Shown here: one piece after another, positions 56,750 through 64,000 of the stretch
Layout of the letters: every line of letters starts with the position of its first letter
Numbering within the stretch: position 1 is the first letter of the stretch
From: Cucumis sativus
Taxonomy: Eukaryota; Streptophyta; Magnoliopsida; Cucurbitales; Cucurbitaceae
DNA: 64,000 nucleotides
NCBI RefSeq assembly: GCF_000004075.3
Contig: NC_026656.2
Location: forward strand, 22,578,607-22,642,606
Direction: 5' to 3'
Notes under the pieces: generated by a model
What the model saw: only the letters and a program-made list of their open reading frames with translations
Told to the model about the DNA's origin: nothing
Database searches by the model: none
Made by a program: the position numbers and the translations under genes

Positions 56750-58200
56750 CCACCACACACCTTACATAACAGTAAAGTCAATGTCTGTGTCCAAACTTGT
56801 GGAATCGCTAACATCACATACTCTATCATGACAAGTAGACATACCACAACGATGAAAATATTGTCTTGTTTTAATGGAAGTCATCTTTCGTGATGACAAA
56901 GACAATGTTCGCATCTGACTCAAAGGTTTTTTACAAACTTGCTCTATTAGAACAATCTTTTTTACGTGTTCAGACTGTCCATATTCCCAACAAACCCTTT
57001 TCTACGTGAACTCTTTCTTCTACTTCCACTTGCTAGCTACCAGTATTGAATCTTCCTGTGAAGTATGCCCCTCACTTCTAGGTCTTCTTTCCTTTGGCAA
57101 AAGTTTACTATCAATCTTAGCAAAATCTAAAGTTTCCCTAAGTACTTCAAGGTTGGTTTCATGTGTCTATAGAGAAGGATGAAGTGGCCAAATAAGTTGG
57201 AGTGCCTTATCTTCACTCCTATCACCCTCAGCTCATAAAATAATATCATTGAGAATAACCAGATGGTCTGATATTTTTATATATTTCACCATTTGCAGCA
57301 GGGAAAACCACTTCTTCAGGTACAACCAATTTAACATGCTCTTGCTTGATACATTGCTTCAAGTTTTTCCCAAAGCTGTTTAGCTGTTGAAATTCTATCC
57401 ACATTTGCTATAATATTTTTAGCCAAATTTAATCTAATCACACTTATAGCTCTCAAATCCATTTCCTCCCATTCTTCATCGCTCATGCTGAATGCCTTAG
57501 AACCTTTACTCGAATCACCATTGGGCTCTCTAAACTCTTTAGAAATACTTAGTGTCTTGTCTTCCTTTGACGCCCTTGTGTAACCCCACTTGTATCAACA
57601 CATCCTTGACAGCTTGCAGTTGCCACAAGCCAAAGTTAATCCTTCCATCAAATTTCCACATTAAACCTTATTGAACTCATAAAGCTAGCTTGATAGATGT
57701 AATTCTTTTCCTAGTAAAAGAACAGATAGTGAACAACTCATGCTATTCACAAATATGTTTTGAGAATGCTTTTATGATGTGGAAGCTCAAACAATGTTGC
57801 AATCACATGACATATTTCGAAATTAAAAAAACTATGAAACATATGTTTTGATACCACTTGTATGGAAAAACCTCCCGCTTCTATCCCGTAGTAAATAAGG
57901 AGAAAAGTAATAGAGAAATTAAGAGAAAATAATAAAAATGAAAAAGACAATAATTTACATCGAAAACTTCCAACTTGGAGGAAATACCATGGACAAGAAA
58001 GAAATCCATTATAAGAAAAATTGCTACCATCACAATAAATAATTCTCTATCCCCGACCCCAATTACAAAAAGACTCTCTCAAAGTTTTTGACTACTCACT
58101 CTTCAAGTAGAGAATACAAAAGAAATTTAATTAAAATTAGCACACTAAAAAAATGTTTCTAATAGAGACAATTAAAAACTAATGAGATAAACTTGTTCTA
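56750..58200 (-). mobile_element. broken Ty1/Copia retrotransposon, 5' part only
   Basis: On the minus strand an LTR-like segment runs from roughly 58200 to 57859, ending CCATACA. Two bases later comes a primer-binding site TGGTATCA (57856-57849) matching the 3' end of initiator tRNA-Met. Degenerate gag sequence of the UBN2 type follows to about 56750. No pol region or second LTR was found. The element is truncated and broken many times, so it is old. The outer LTR boundary is approximate. Confidence 0.75.
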
Positions 58201-58253
58201 TAGTCGATGATAAATCCATCACATTTTAAAACCTTTTTTTAAGTTGAGGATTA

Positions 58254-58298
58254 AGAGGGAGAGGGAGAGGGAGAGGGAGAGGGAGAGGGAGAGGGAGA
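58254..58298. repeat. GAGGGA hexanucleotide microsatellite
   Basis: About seven perfect GAGGGA units, 0.55 kb before the epimerase start codon. The antisense frame reads as an alternating Leu-Pro run and is an artefact. Confidence 0.95.
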
Positions 58299-58845
58299 AT
58301 AGTGATTTGTGAGTAAAAAATAAAATAAAGAAAGCAAGATAGGCAAGAGCGAAACTCTAATTTATTAGCTTTGGAGACGAACATTTTGATAATTTGGGTC
58401 GAATTTGATATCAACAAATTTTTTAAAAAATGAGGCCATTTAATTACATTATGTTCACCCAATATTTGGATGATCCATATGGATTATCCTTTTGAAATCC
58501 CATTCTTATTGTAGGAAAATAATAATAATAAAAAAAATCGAGTCAAAGGTCAGGAAAGTCGAGTCGGGTAAGGATGAGAAGAAATGAAGAACCTTGTGGA
58601 GATGGTGGAAAAGGAGGGATGATGCTCTTAAAACACCTCACGAAAGTTGATCTTATTCCTCATCAATCCAGCCGCCAGGGGTTGGTAAGATTATCTTTCA
58701 AAACACGCATTTGTTGAAAACCATCTGATTTCGGAGTTGGATTCCATTTTCTACAATTCTCGAGATACATATCTGTATCTGCAAATTCCTCGCAGTTCAG
58801 TCGCTTCAGTTTTTGATCGGCTAAGCGAGTAAGAGTTAGACGAAA

Positions 58846-61800
58846 ATGGGAGTCGCTGCCAAAATCGCACCCTCAATGCTATCCTCAGATTTTGCTAATT
58901 TAGCTTCGGAGGCCGAACGAATGCTTAAATTTGGTGCGGATTGGCTTCACATGGACATTATGGTACCCACACGCTCTCTATTTCTGTTTTTCTGAATTGG
59001 GAATTGGACGAATTATCTTTTGATTCTTGCACCCATTTGATCATAGTATTTCTTCTTAGTCTTGATTGCCCACCATTTACCTTTCATCTAATTGAATTGC
59101 TTCATAATCTACTTCACTTTAATTGTTTGAATCATCTTCTTTGTCTATACTTTTTGGGTATCAATAGAATTTTATCTATGTTATTTTAATACTTTTATAG
59201 TACTAGTGGGATTGTTTCAAGTAAATTCACCCATTTATGATGGGTAGAGTTTCGCCTTAGCTAATGATTTCTCTGTGCTGCTCGTGTCCTCTCTAGTTTT
59301 ATTCCTTCCCAATTTAACTTCCTTTGAACTGAATAATAAAATAATTACAATCTTGCCAAAGTGAGCCTTGCTCAATGGTAATTGACATGGCCTTCTTTTT
59401 TAGAGGATGAATGTTTGATCCCCATCCCCACAAATGTTGTACTAAAAAAATAGTAATAGTCCTCTTTAAAGAATGCATTTCACTTTCTTATATTGGTTGG
59501 TGAGAGTATAGAGAAAGGCGTGTAGTGATGCATAATCCAATTAGATATTATAATGACATGCTTGCAAATTTTGTGATGTGCGAGAGTGGATGTGGTTTTA
59601 TAAACTACATTTACTTTGCACATTAGTGATGAATTTGTCTGGCATCACATCTGATATCTCTTGTTGCTTTATTTGCAGGATGGGTAGGTTCATTCTATGC
59701 TGATATCACGCTCCTGTTGAACTGCAATGTGTTTCATGTTGATGGGTTTGATATTGTGGTTAATTTTATACCTGTTCACCTGTTAAATTTAGGATTGAAT
59801 GCTTCTCAAAATAACTTGACGTTGACCGATATGGTGTTGATCGCTTGTAGCATCTACTTTCTAGCCAAATGCCTGCTTATTTTTAAAGATTTGCTGAAGA
59901 AACTTGCGAAATATCTAGTTTCATTTATTATTTATAAATTTAAAGAAAGCCCCAAATAGTGTGTGCTTAGACGTGCTGCATGCTTACCCATGGGTGAGGT
60001 GCCTAGTCTTTTTGAGCATGAGCTTCCCCTGTGATGATTTGTTTACAGAAACAAGCTTGGGTTAGTTTAAGTAAAAGAAAAGATGGAAAAAAAGAGAGAA
60101 GAAAATCTAACAAAAAGTTACCATCATCCCTCACTTGGCCTTTTCAGTTGAAGCTCTCTTTTCTTCCCTCAAAAAAATGTGGAGGAACTTGAAAATTAGA
60201 CCAAGAGGAAGATTTTGTAGCGATAGAAGTCTAGTGAGGGGATGGGGAAAATGACGATGAAAACTTATTTAGTAGAATGGCTCTAAATTTTTAGGTACCT
60301 GCATTAGCTTATTTTTCATGATTTTGTGGCTTGTTGAAAGACTCATATCACTTGGATCTTGGTTTGTCTTACATATAAATCAATTAGCTTTTTTTAAATT
60401 TAATTTTCCCCTATATGTATGCATCTTTTAATTTTCATTCGCTTTATCTTATTGAATCTTTTACTTTTCTTGTGTCTTATGCTTAATCCCACAAAGGTTA
60501 TTGCATGTTAGTATTCCGGTAAAATAAAACATTGGTCTTGTTTATCTTCTACTGGACCAAGTTTGTATCTTACTTTTTCAACAATTCAGTTATAAGATCT
60601 TTCTTTCTTTTTTCTCAAGGAAAGAAAACATTTCAATGAAATAGGGGCCAAAGCCCCCTCACCCAAACATTTCATTGATTATAAGGTCTTTCTTACTTAT
60701 TGCTCCTAAATCTCGATTGAAGAAGCTTGGCATTTTAATTTTATGTTTGTAGTTTGCACCATTTCTCATCCCAACGTTTGACCTCCATCAATTTATCCTT
60801 CGATTCTTGTCTGTCCATCTCATCCTTTCTAATTGTTTAGACCCCTGATAATGGTTCAATTTTAGGATTTGAATTATGATTTCATTATTTGCCTTTATCC
60901 TTCGCTTGGTTGACACTCACTACACTCTTTCTGCTACCACCCCTTTTTATTGGAAAGAAATTGGCGTTGCAAACTAAAAAAGTGTTTGGCCTCTTCTCAG
61001 AATCACCTATTTATGATTTAATTGGTAAATGGTTTGATATAGTTCTTTCCTTGATACCTATGCGTTTTGAAACTTTCACAGGTATTATAAGTCTCCAAAA
61101 ACTCATCCCATAGAAACTAGGTAGATGTTAGGACTTAAGCACCTTGGAGAACCACACCCCAAAAGCCAACTATTGGGGCAGGAGAGTCAAGCCACTTAAG
61201 TACCACATTGGTAATTCTATTCTAACCAATGTGGGACAAAGGCATCTCATACTACCTTGGTTCCTAACAATAGAGTTGTTCTTTACTTTGACCATACATT
61301 TTGACCAATAGGTAGTTGGATCTCTCTGTAAACTGGAAGGATTTTGGAGTGTTGAGGTGATTATTATAATTTGTGGGTTATAATAGTTTGTGTTTGGGGT
61401 GTATACTATTTTAGTGTGAGTTAATGAGAAGGAGAGAGGATGAGTAGGAAAAAGTAAACGTGGTAACAAAAAGGGATTTAGAATAGTAATATTGTAGTTA
61501 AGTGTAGGTTGGAAAAGTTGAATCCATTAACTATTATAATTGGAAGCCCAAATGGCCCCTAAGATCCTCCAGTTTTTTTCCCATCTGATCAGAATTCCCC
61601 TGAATCACCGAAAGATTCAAGGAAACCCAGCCAGTGTTCATTGAGCTCCAAAAGCACTCCACCTAGTTTCCTATCCATATTCCCCAACTTTACATCTTGG
61701 AAGAAAATGTATTTTACATTTTCATTTTTACGAGTGATTACCTTAAAGTTTCCGTGTTACTATATGTTGGCTTTGGCAATCTATTACAATCTGTAATGTA

Positions 61801-63431
61801 TTTGCCTAATTGGGATCCTGGGATTTTATTATAGTGATTAAGAACTGCTAAGCTAATAACGATCATAACATGGGTCTGCATTTGTTTTTCCTGATATACT
61901 GTTTTAGTTTTTACCTAGTAATTTCTTGACCTTTCTACTTTCTTCATTTTAAGATTAACGATCATCTGAAAAATTCTAATTATCAAGAAAATCATGAAGT
62001 TTTCTTTTAAAAAAATCGACATGTTGGCTCTATGAAAATCTATCTGTTGTCATTTGGTTGAATTCAACCTGTAACAGGACTACGCATAATTTCTCCGTGG
62101 TGTGATTTGTGCATCATCTGGATTACACAATTTAGCATGCTTTTTTCACTCTTCAAGTTTTCTATTGGTTTATTTCTTGTGCCTAGCTGGGAAAGTGATA
62201 TATCTATATTTTTTGTTTATGTATCTACCACAGGCACTTTGTCCCAAATCTGACAATTGGTGCTCCTGTCATCGAGAGTTTAAGAAAACATACGAAGTAA
62301 TGTAACCACTTTGCTTCTTCGATTTCAAGAATTCAGCACTCTTTTTATTTGTTTATTTTTCTTTCTTTTTGGGGAATGGCCGATTGTTAGAGCTTGATGG
62401 CATTGCATTAACTTGTCTTAATTTATTGTTTTGCAGGGCATATCTTGATTGCCACCTTATGGTTACAAATCCTCTTGATTATGTTGAACCCTTGGCAAAA
62501 GCTGGTGCTTCAGGCTTTACATTTCATGTTGAAGTATCCAAAGGTACATTGTGTTTGGACTTCTGATTTGTTCTACTTCTATTGCATCATAGTTATTTAA
62601 GTTTTCTTTCCCTCTTCTCTGGTAGACAATTGGCAGCAGCTAATCCAAGAAATTAAGTCAAAGGGCATGAAGTCAGGGGTAGCGCTAAAACCTGGAACAC
62701 CCATTGAAGAAGTTTATCCTTTGGTATGCAATTGATCTTCTCATCTCCTCCCCCAATTTCATATCCTTCATTTACAAGATTGATATGTTGTAGTGATAAG
62801 GCCCCCGGTTAAAGGTCTATACACAAGGCATAAGAGGGATTGAAAAGAGTGATTATAAGAGTTGAGTGGACCCTTAGGAATTCTGTTAGTTATGGGACTG
62901 TGAGATGTGAGTTTGTTACTTGTTTATTTCCTTTAAATACTCACTAGTTTGGGTAAGGAGGGGCGTCTTTTGTCTTCTGTCTAATATCTTGTGATTGCAA
63001 TTCTCTTTGAAAATTAAGAGAGGTTGGGAAGCTCTCAAACGCTTCCCCCATTGTTTATAAATAAACTGAGGCCAAGACATATCATAATATATGTCTTGTG
63101 CAAATGCTATTCGTCCAATATCCAGCAAAGTACTTATGGTTTTGTGCAAATGCTGCTGCATCAAAATTTTATAATTGTTATTTGATGCTTGTTATTTCTT
63201 CAATTTCAGGTAGAAAGTGAAAATCCTGTGGACTTGGTCCTTGTTATGACAGTCGAACCTGGTTTCGGTGGTCAAAAGTTCATGCCAGAAACGATGGATA
63301 AGGTTCCATTTCTTCGACATTTTCAACATTCTTTGTACATTGTTTGATTGGCATTCTTGTTGAATCTCGTTACTGATTTTAACTTTTTCAGGTACGAAAT
63401 TTAAGACAGAAGTACCCATCTCTTGACATTG

Positions 63432-63463
<32 letters not shown>

Positions 63464-64000
63464 TTTAATATCTTTCAGTTTTCTGCGACCTTAATGAATT
63501 TTTCTTGAGATTTTTGGGTACCTCAGAATGTGTCCTAAAGCTATTAAAACTCAGTGCTTACTGAAGTGGAGATTAAAAAAATCACTCTCAATTAGTAGTA
63601 GAATTTATTCACGTTAATTTTAACTCTGGCTTTATTCTTTCTCTGGTCAAGTATTTGATATAAGAACTCACTCTTTTTGCAAACATGGTTCCAATCACCA
63701 GTCTTTTAAGCCCTCGTAAAATTTCCCATGATAAATTAATGTGTTGGAAAGATAAAACCAATCTAGCCAATAGTTTTTGGTTGCAATCTTTGTATGCTAC
63801 CAGGATTGCACAAACTCTATGTAGCGTACTCGTTGCAGTTGAAATTCAGTGTACAGATGGCCGTATGAAGGATGGTTTCTGACTGGTTAGTTTTGCTTTG
63901 GTGGGCAGGTGGATGGTGGGTTGGGACCTTCAACCATAGATGCAGCAGCTTCAGCTGGGGCAAACTGCATCGTTGCAGGAAGTTCGGTGTTTGGAGCTCC
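58846..64000 (+). CDS. RPE: ribulose-phosphate 3-epimerase, cytosolic type, partial (3' end outside window)
   Basis: Interconverts ribulose 5-phosphate and xylulose 5-phosphate in the pentose phosphate pathway. Exons in the window: 58846-58962, 59679-59683, 62234-62296, 62437-62543, 62626-62723, 63210-63302, 63392-63433 and 63909-64000 (continuing). The first 205 residues are covered. The protein starts [19 protein letters not shown] with no transit peptide, marking the cytosolic isoform. TIM-barrel motifs: [18 protein letters not shown] with metal-site His and Asp residues; [33 protein letters not shown]; and [19 protein letters not shown]. The Asp-Gly of MDG is supplied by a 5-nt exon (GATGG). 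Without it both the frame and the motif are lost. Introns 1 and 2 hold a SINE, a LINE tail, a MITE and an LTR-like element. Intron 7 starts with a CT microsatellite directly after the donor. Confidence 0.95.
59350..59450 (+). mobile_element. tRNA-derived SINE in RPE intron 1
   Basis: AGTGAGCCTTGCTCAATGG resembles a pol III A box, and AATGTTTGATCCCC about 45 bases on a B box. ACAAATGTTGTACTAAAAAAA closes the element. Same family as 28625-28735 by eye. Confidence 0.65.
60612..60690 (-). mobile_element. LINE 3'-tail fragment in RPE intron 2
   Basis: GAAAGAAAACATTTCAATG followed by AAATAGGGGCCAAAGCCCCC and a second TTTCATTGATT word; the reverse complement matches the LINE tail pattern in the Noc2 introns. 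Very short, no coding remains. Confidence 0.4.
61126..61269. mobile_element. 144-bp TG...CA element, solo-LTR or TRIM-like
   Basis: Bounded by TGTTAGGAC and TTCCTAACA, with flanking pentamers GTAGA and ATAGA that agree at four of five positions. The inside has ACATTGG/CCAATGTGGGAC inverted words. The ends suit a very small LTR or a MITE; family unknown, no internal region. Confidence 0.5.
61345..61560 (+). mobile_element. Tourist-like MITE in RPE intron 2
   Basis: Shares AGGGATTTAGAATAGTAATA, TAGTTAAGTGTAGGTTG and the closing AAGCCCAAATGGCCCC with the sulfite oxidase intron 7 element (there in the opposite orientation). The 5' end is degenerate. TAA follows the 3' end, as Tourist insertions prefer. 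Confidence 0.5.
63435..63461. repeat. CT dinucleotide microsatellite
   Basis: About 13 CT units start inside the 5' splice site of RPE intron 7 (GAG|GTCTCTCT). Length changes here would sit right beside the donor. Confidence 0.95.

Follow-up and report, generated by a model that had tools for sequence, protein, structure and literature searches.

A probable five-nucleotide coding microexon supplies Asp-Gly in a plant ribulose-phosphate 3-epimerase gene

We find that five nucleotides, GATGG, at positions 59679-59683 on the plus strand of the window (the whole 64-kb stretch of DNA that was analyzed), very probably constitute a real microexon, judging from their sequence, the frame that they restore, their uniqueness among single candidate exons and the match of the predicted product to its enzyme family. 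We hold with high confidence that GATGG is a constitutive, phase 0 coding microexon of a gene for a ribulose-phosphate 3-epimerase (RPE) of the cytosolic type. Together with the first base of the exon that follows, the five bases would spell Asp40-Gly41 and restore the reading frame between two exons that are otherwise separated by more than three kilobases of DNA.

Results

The spliced-frame reconstruction yields eight exons on the plus strand. Exon 1 (58846-58962, a coding part of 117 nt) runs from the start codon to HMDIM, ends in phase 0 and is followed by the donor gtaccc. The microexon, exon 2, encodes Asp40 and opens the Gly41 codon with its last two bases; it lies 716 nt from exon 1 and 2550 nt from the next coding exon, and is flanked upstream by ...ttgctttatttgcag and downstream by gtaggttc. 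Exon 3 (62234-62296, 63 nt) follows a weak acceptor, ctaccacag, and begins with a G and then CAC TTT, the first codons of HFVPNL, so that GATGG plus this G gives the Asp and Gly codons. The remaining exons are exon 4 (62437-62543, 107 nt), exon 5 (62626-62723, 98 nt), exon 6 (63210-63302, 93 nt), exon 7 (63392-63433, 42 nt) and exon 8, which occupies 63909-64000 within the window and extends 64 nt beyond it, for 156 coding nucleotides in all and a stop codon at the window-equivalent positions 64062-64064. With GATGG included, the eight exons join into one 681-nt coding sequence with no internal stop and a product of 226 amino acids.

An earlier, sequence-only reading of this DNA had proposed much of this arrangement, and recomputation returned the same coordinates for GATGG and the same lengths for both introns. 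In the spliced frame, exon 1 ends in HMDIM and the next long exon starts with HFVPNL, as had been claimed, and the first five exons do total 390 nt with every later exon in frame. The same reading had warned that omission of GATGG would leave a frameshifted or truncated RPE, and the spliced frame bears this out: without the microexon, translation leaves the RPE frame beyond residue 39 and ends after 63 residues.

Two simple repeats lie close to the exons of this gene. The start codon is preceded, at a distance of about 550 nt, by a perfect AGAGGG tandem repeat of 7.5 copies (58254-58298). A pure TC microsatellite of 13.5 copies (63435-63461) occupies intron 7 from its second base onward (GAG|GTCTCTCT...), so that the donor site of exon 7 merges with it. 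A search of Rfam with positions 57500-64000 gave no match at the gathering score, and a scan of 58200-58846 for bacterial promoters and terminators is uninformative for a plant gene.

We then consider what the gene encodes. The 226-residue product matches PF00834 with 243.6 bits over positions 1-198 of 198 (cut-off 21.1) and TIGR01163 (rpe) with 241 bits over positions 1-211 of 211 (cut-off 212.6), bearing out the initial assignment of the gene to RPE; the predicted enzyme is of the cytosolic type. Among solved structures the best match is 1h1y, which we take to be the rice cytosolic RPE, with 224 residues aligned without gaps at 432.7 bits, straight across HMDIM-DG-HFVPN. A hypothetical in-frame product lacking DG scores 230.6 bits against the Pfam profile, 13 lower than the product with it.

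H35, D37, H68 and D177, in the numbering of the product, presumably make up the metal ligands and the catalytic Asp of RPE. All four align to identical residues in 1h1y and 3ovp, and all four are encoded outside the microexon. The catalytic Asp itself we take to be D37, encoded in exon 1; D40 of the microexon sits within the conserved signature beside the active site and would not be the catalytic Asp. Sixteen PDB sequences matched the product, and in the five alignments printed the microexon position reads Asp-Gly in four, of which 3qc3 and 3ovp are near-identical, and Asp-Met in 1tqx. The Asp is firmer than the Gly, given this Met at the Gly position. Among prokaryotes, DG occupies the position in 80/80 of the loci kept, the best 80 of 587 confirmed stretches, a count that is partly circular because one of the search patterns was MDGHFVPN. 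One RPE relative with MDGHFVPN was also found in viral contigs, where it is of no use for intron structure. The proposal that GATGG supplies the Asp-Gly of the active-site motif is thus right in that Asp40-Gly41 falls in the signature, but its Asp is probably not the catalytic one and its Gly is not invariant.

The 3' splice signal of intron 1 (59651-59678) would comprise a branchpoint-like CTGAT at 59651-59655, whose A (59654) lies 25 nt upstream of the microexon, a U-rich tract and TTTGCAG. Between CTGAT and the microexon the tract is 61% U and 78% pyrimidine, and the other six acceptors of the gene span 50-67% U and 56-89% pyrimidine, four of the six also matching a loose branchpoint pattern. 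Since these acceptors are comparable in U content, pyrimidine content and branchpoint, the 3' site of the microexon is adequate and not special. Immediately downstream, intron 2 opens with the 5' splice site gtaggt (59684-59689). We propose that the spliceosome would remove the 716-nt upstream and 2550-nt downstream introns, in whichever order, and that inclusion of GATGG would be constitutive. Recognition probably relies on intron-side signals, namely the CTGAT 25 nt upstream, the U-rich tract and TTTGCAG, because a 5-nt exon is too short to hold enhancers.

An alternative that we consider unlikely, though the best placed of those weighed here, is that the microexon is real but regulated, with some transcripts skipping it or keeping a flanking intron so that early stops tune the level of RPE. 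Every such departure would truncate the protein: skipping leaves the 63 residues described above, retention of intron 1 brings a stop after 10 intron codons, and retention of intron 2 brings one immediately, the unspliced frame reading GAT GGG TAG. Most retained introns cause early stops, however, so this outcome is weakly informative and the sequence says little on regulation. Introns flanking plant microexons are described as more often detained, chiefly the upstream one, which would favor regulation, but most coding microexons are given a PSI above 0.5, which speaks for routine inclusion (PMC8831610).

Returning to the constitutive microexon, we assessed how far its position is singled out by splice-site quality. 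AG and GT sites in the 3271-nt interval between exons 1 and 3 were scored with small matrices built from 13 introns of the two RPE genes found in the genome; the splice sites of introns 1 and 2 of the microexon gene, four in all, were left out of the training. Of the 158 AG sites, the acceptor of the microexon scores best, whereas its donor stands 23rd among 179 GT sites. Both had been called perfect; the description suits the acceptor, but the donor gtaggt is ordinary. It scores 4.5, close to the lower end of the training scores (4.3-9.2), and the acceptor of exon 3 scores 1.7 against a training range of 4.4-15.8, bearing in mind that training scores are flattered because the matrices were made from those very sites.

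When a margin of at least 60 nt is left at each end of the interval, 83 stop-free internal exons of up to 60 nt restore the frame, and GATGG has the top score among them (14.2). It is the sole candidate of the 83 single exons that ends in Asp-Gly. The 82 others all lack DG, and the next best, at 61340-61356, scores 12.4 against 14.2. Direct joins of exon 1 to exon 3 with shifted ends were also enumerated, with donors at or beyond 58906, acceptors no later than 62234 and introns of at least 60 nt, and zero of them give DGHFVPNL. The enumeration covers single internal exons and direct joins at GT-AG sites, with acceptors no further than the start of exon 3.

We regard it as very improbable that Asp-Gly comes from some other splice arrangement, such as another small exon or shifted ends of exons 1 and 3, and that GATGG is a product of chance. 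Chance does have some room: when the 3271-nt interval is shuffled with its dinucleotides preserved, AG|GAYGG|GT turns up in 55 of 5000 trials, or about 1%, and the stricter YAG|GAYGG|GTR in 14 of 5000. Against this, DG is provided neither by any of the other single exons, up to 60 nt in length, nor by any direct join tested, which also upholds the earlier contention that DG must be supplied between exons 1 and 3: no junction tested without the microexon yields Asp-Gly. The 9-mer AGGATGGGT is found once in the 64-kb window on both strands, with 0.33 expected, and at least once in 29 of 100 whole-window shuffles. As a 9-mer it is unremarkable in 64 kb, and the weight is therefore carried by its place and frame.

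A genome-wide search with PF00834, which sees exons singly and may miss short ones, returned six exon-wise matches that fall in two places, the microexon gene and a gene on C1. This paralog encodes HVDVMDGRFVPN (VMDGRFVPN) inside one ordinary exon and has an N-terminal extension, which we infer to be a plastid transit peptide.

The 2550-nt intron contains a dispersed repeat of about 147 nt (61126-61272) with at least 59 other genomic matches at 79-92% identity, 40 of 293 candidates having been scored; some copies are paired, about 230-270 nt apart. The repeat ends in TGTTAGG...CCTAACA (to 61269), is flanked by GTAGA and ATAGA, alike at 4/5 positions, and resembles a solo LTR or a small LTR element. 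Compared with its own genome, the intron was matched elsewhere only through this one dispersed repeat, which lies away from the microexon (again with 40 of 293 candidates scored). The least probable explanation is a pseudogene or an assembly error around the microexon, because, although the two large introns, one with a repeat insertion, and the weak acceptor of exon 3 might hint at it, the eight exons stay in frame, the product matches 1h1y without gaps and the gene is the only place of the cytosolic type found in the genome search.

Discussion

If GATGG is used as predicted, an annotation missing these five bases would give either a 63-residue fragment or a wrong model of a core enzyme of the pentose-phosphate pathway. 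So tiny an exon is easy for gene-finding software to overlook, and the gene would serve well for testing annotation methods that take microexons into account. It holds little wider surprise, as the mechanism belongs to a known plant class. A bolder reading would make GATGG an obligatory checkpoint of one cytosolic-type RPE gene, at which regulated skipping or intron detention sets cytosolic pentose-phosphate flux, and perhaps a conserved microexon of plant RPE genes that annotations overlook on a wide scale, with frameshifted RPE models as the result; we think this unlikely, slightly more so than regulation of the microexon alone.

In our literature search, no text tied a plant microexon to ribulose-phosphate 3-epimerase. 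The main texts of PMC8831610, PMC12409088 and PMC10808074, with cluster tables outside the search, contain neither 'epimerase' nor 'RPE'. Co-mentions of microexons and 'ribulose' were incidental, standing in one paper in the reference list and in another in an option for read mapping and in a table row on Rubisco, and the single paper that paired plant microexons with 'epimerase' concerned a nematode. Because no text makes the link, we file GATGG as a new RPE case within the known class of plant microexons, possibly one already catalogued.

Plant coding microexons of 1-15 nt, including 5-nt ones, are an established class, with 2398 small microexons, 57-90% of them coding, described across 10 species, along with 45 conserved clusters (PMC8831610, PMC12409088). 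GATGG has the form of this class: it is internal and 5 nt long, the predicted introns on either side, of 716 and 2550 nt, follow the GT-AG rule, and it is coding and frame-preserving, with a 681-nt frame when included and a frameshift when left out. Like the MEPmodeler/MEPDB clusters (Yu et al. 2022, Islamov et al. 2025), it is internal, coding and bounded by two introns, lies in a conserved motif, is essential to the frame and is easily missed by annotation. The examples named there include Cluster 5 (size 4, phase 2) and Cluster 7, which is of size 5 and phase 1 and belongs to Peptidase M1, as well as a rice transcript, checked by RT-PCR, in which a 5-nt microexon adjoins one of 12 nt (PMC8831610, PMC12409088). 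Cluster 7 shares the size of GATGG but belongs to another gene and to phase 1, whereas GATGG is a phase 0 exon of RPE. Cluster 6 may, at a guess, be of size 5 and phase 0 like GATGG, should the numbering follow size and phase.

A close parallel is the 9-nt, phase 1 microexon of plant invertases, which encodes Asp-Pro-Asn (PMC8831610). In both cases a tiny exon gives conserved motif residues of a metabolic enzyme. Skipping of the invertase microexon keeps the frame, because nine is a multiple of three, whereas skipping of the 5-nt GATGG destroys it. As a control, the 9-nt invertase pattern was recovered in 5/7 GH32 loci of the same genome, a set in which the matches L105 and L106 fall in genes already represented by L103 and L104, and in which L100 and L102 showed no copy of the pattern in the flanks retrieved; in the 64-kb window it has 0 matches on both strands. 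The 1-nt microexons of plant APC11 and VPS55 resemble GATGG in that their omission changes the frame, and differ from it in being a single base and in residing in different genes (PMC8831610).
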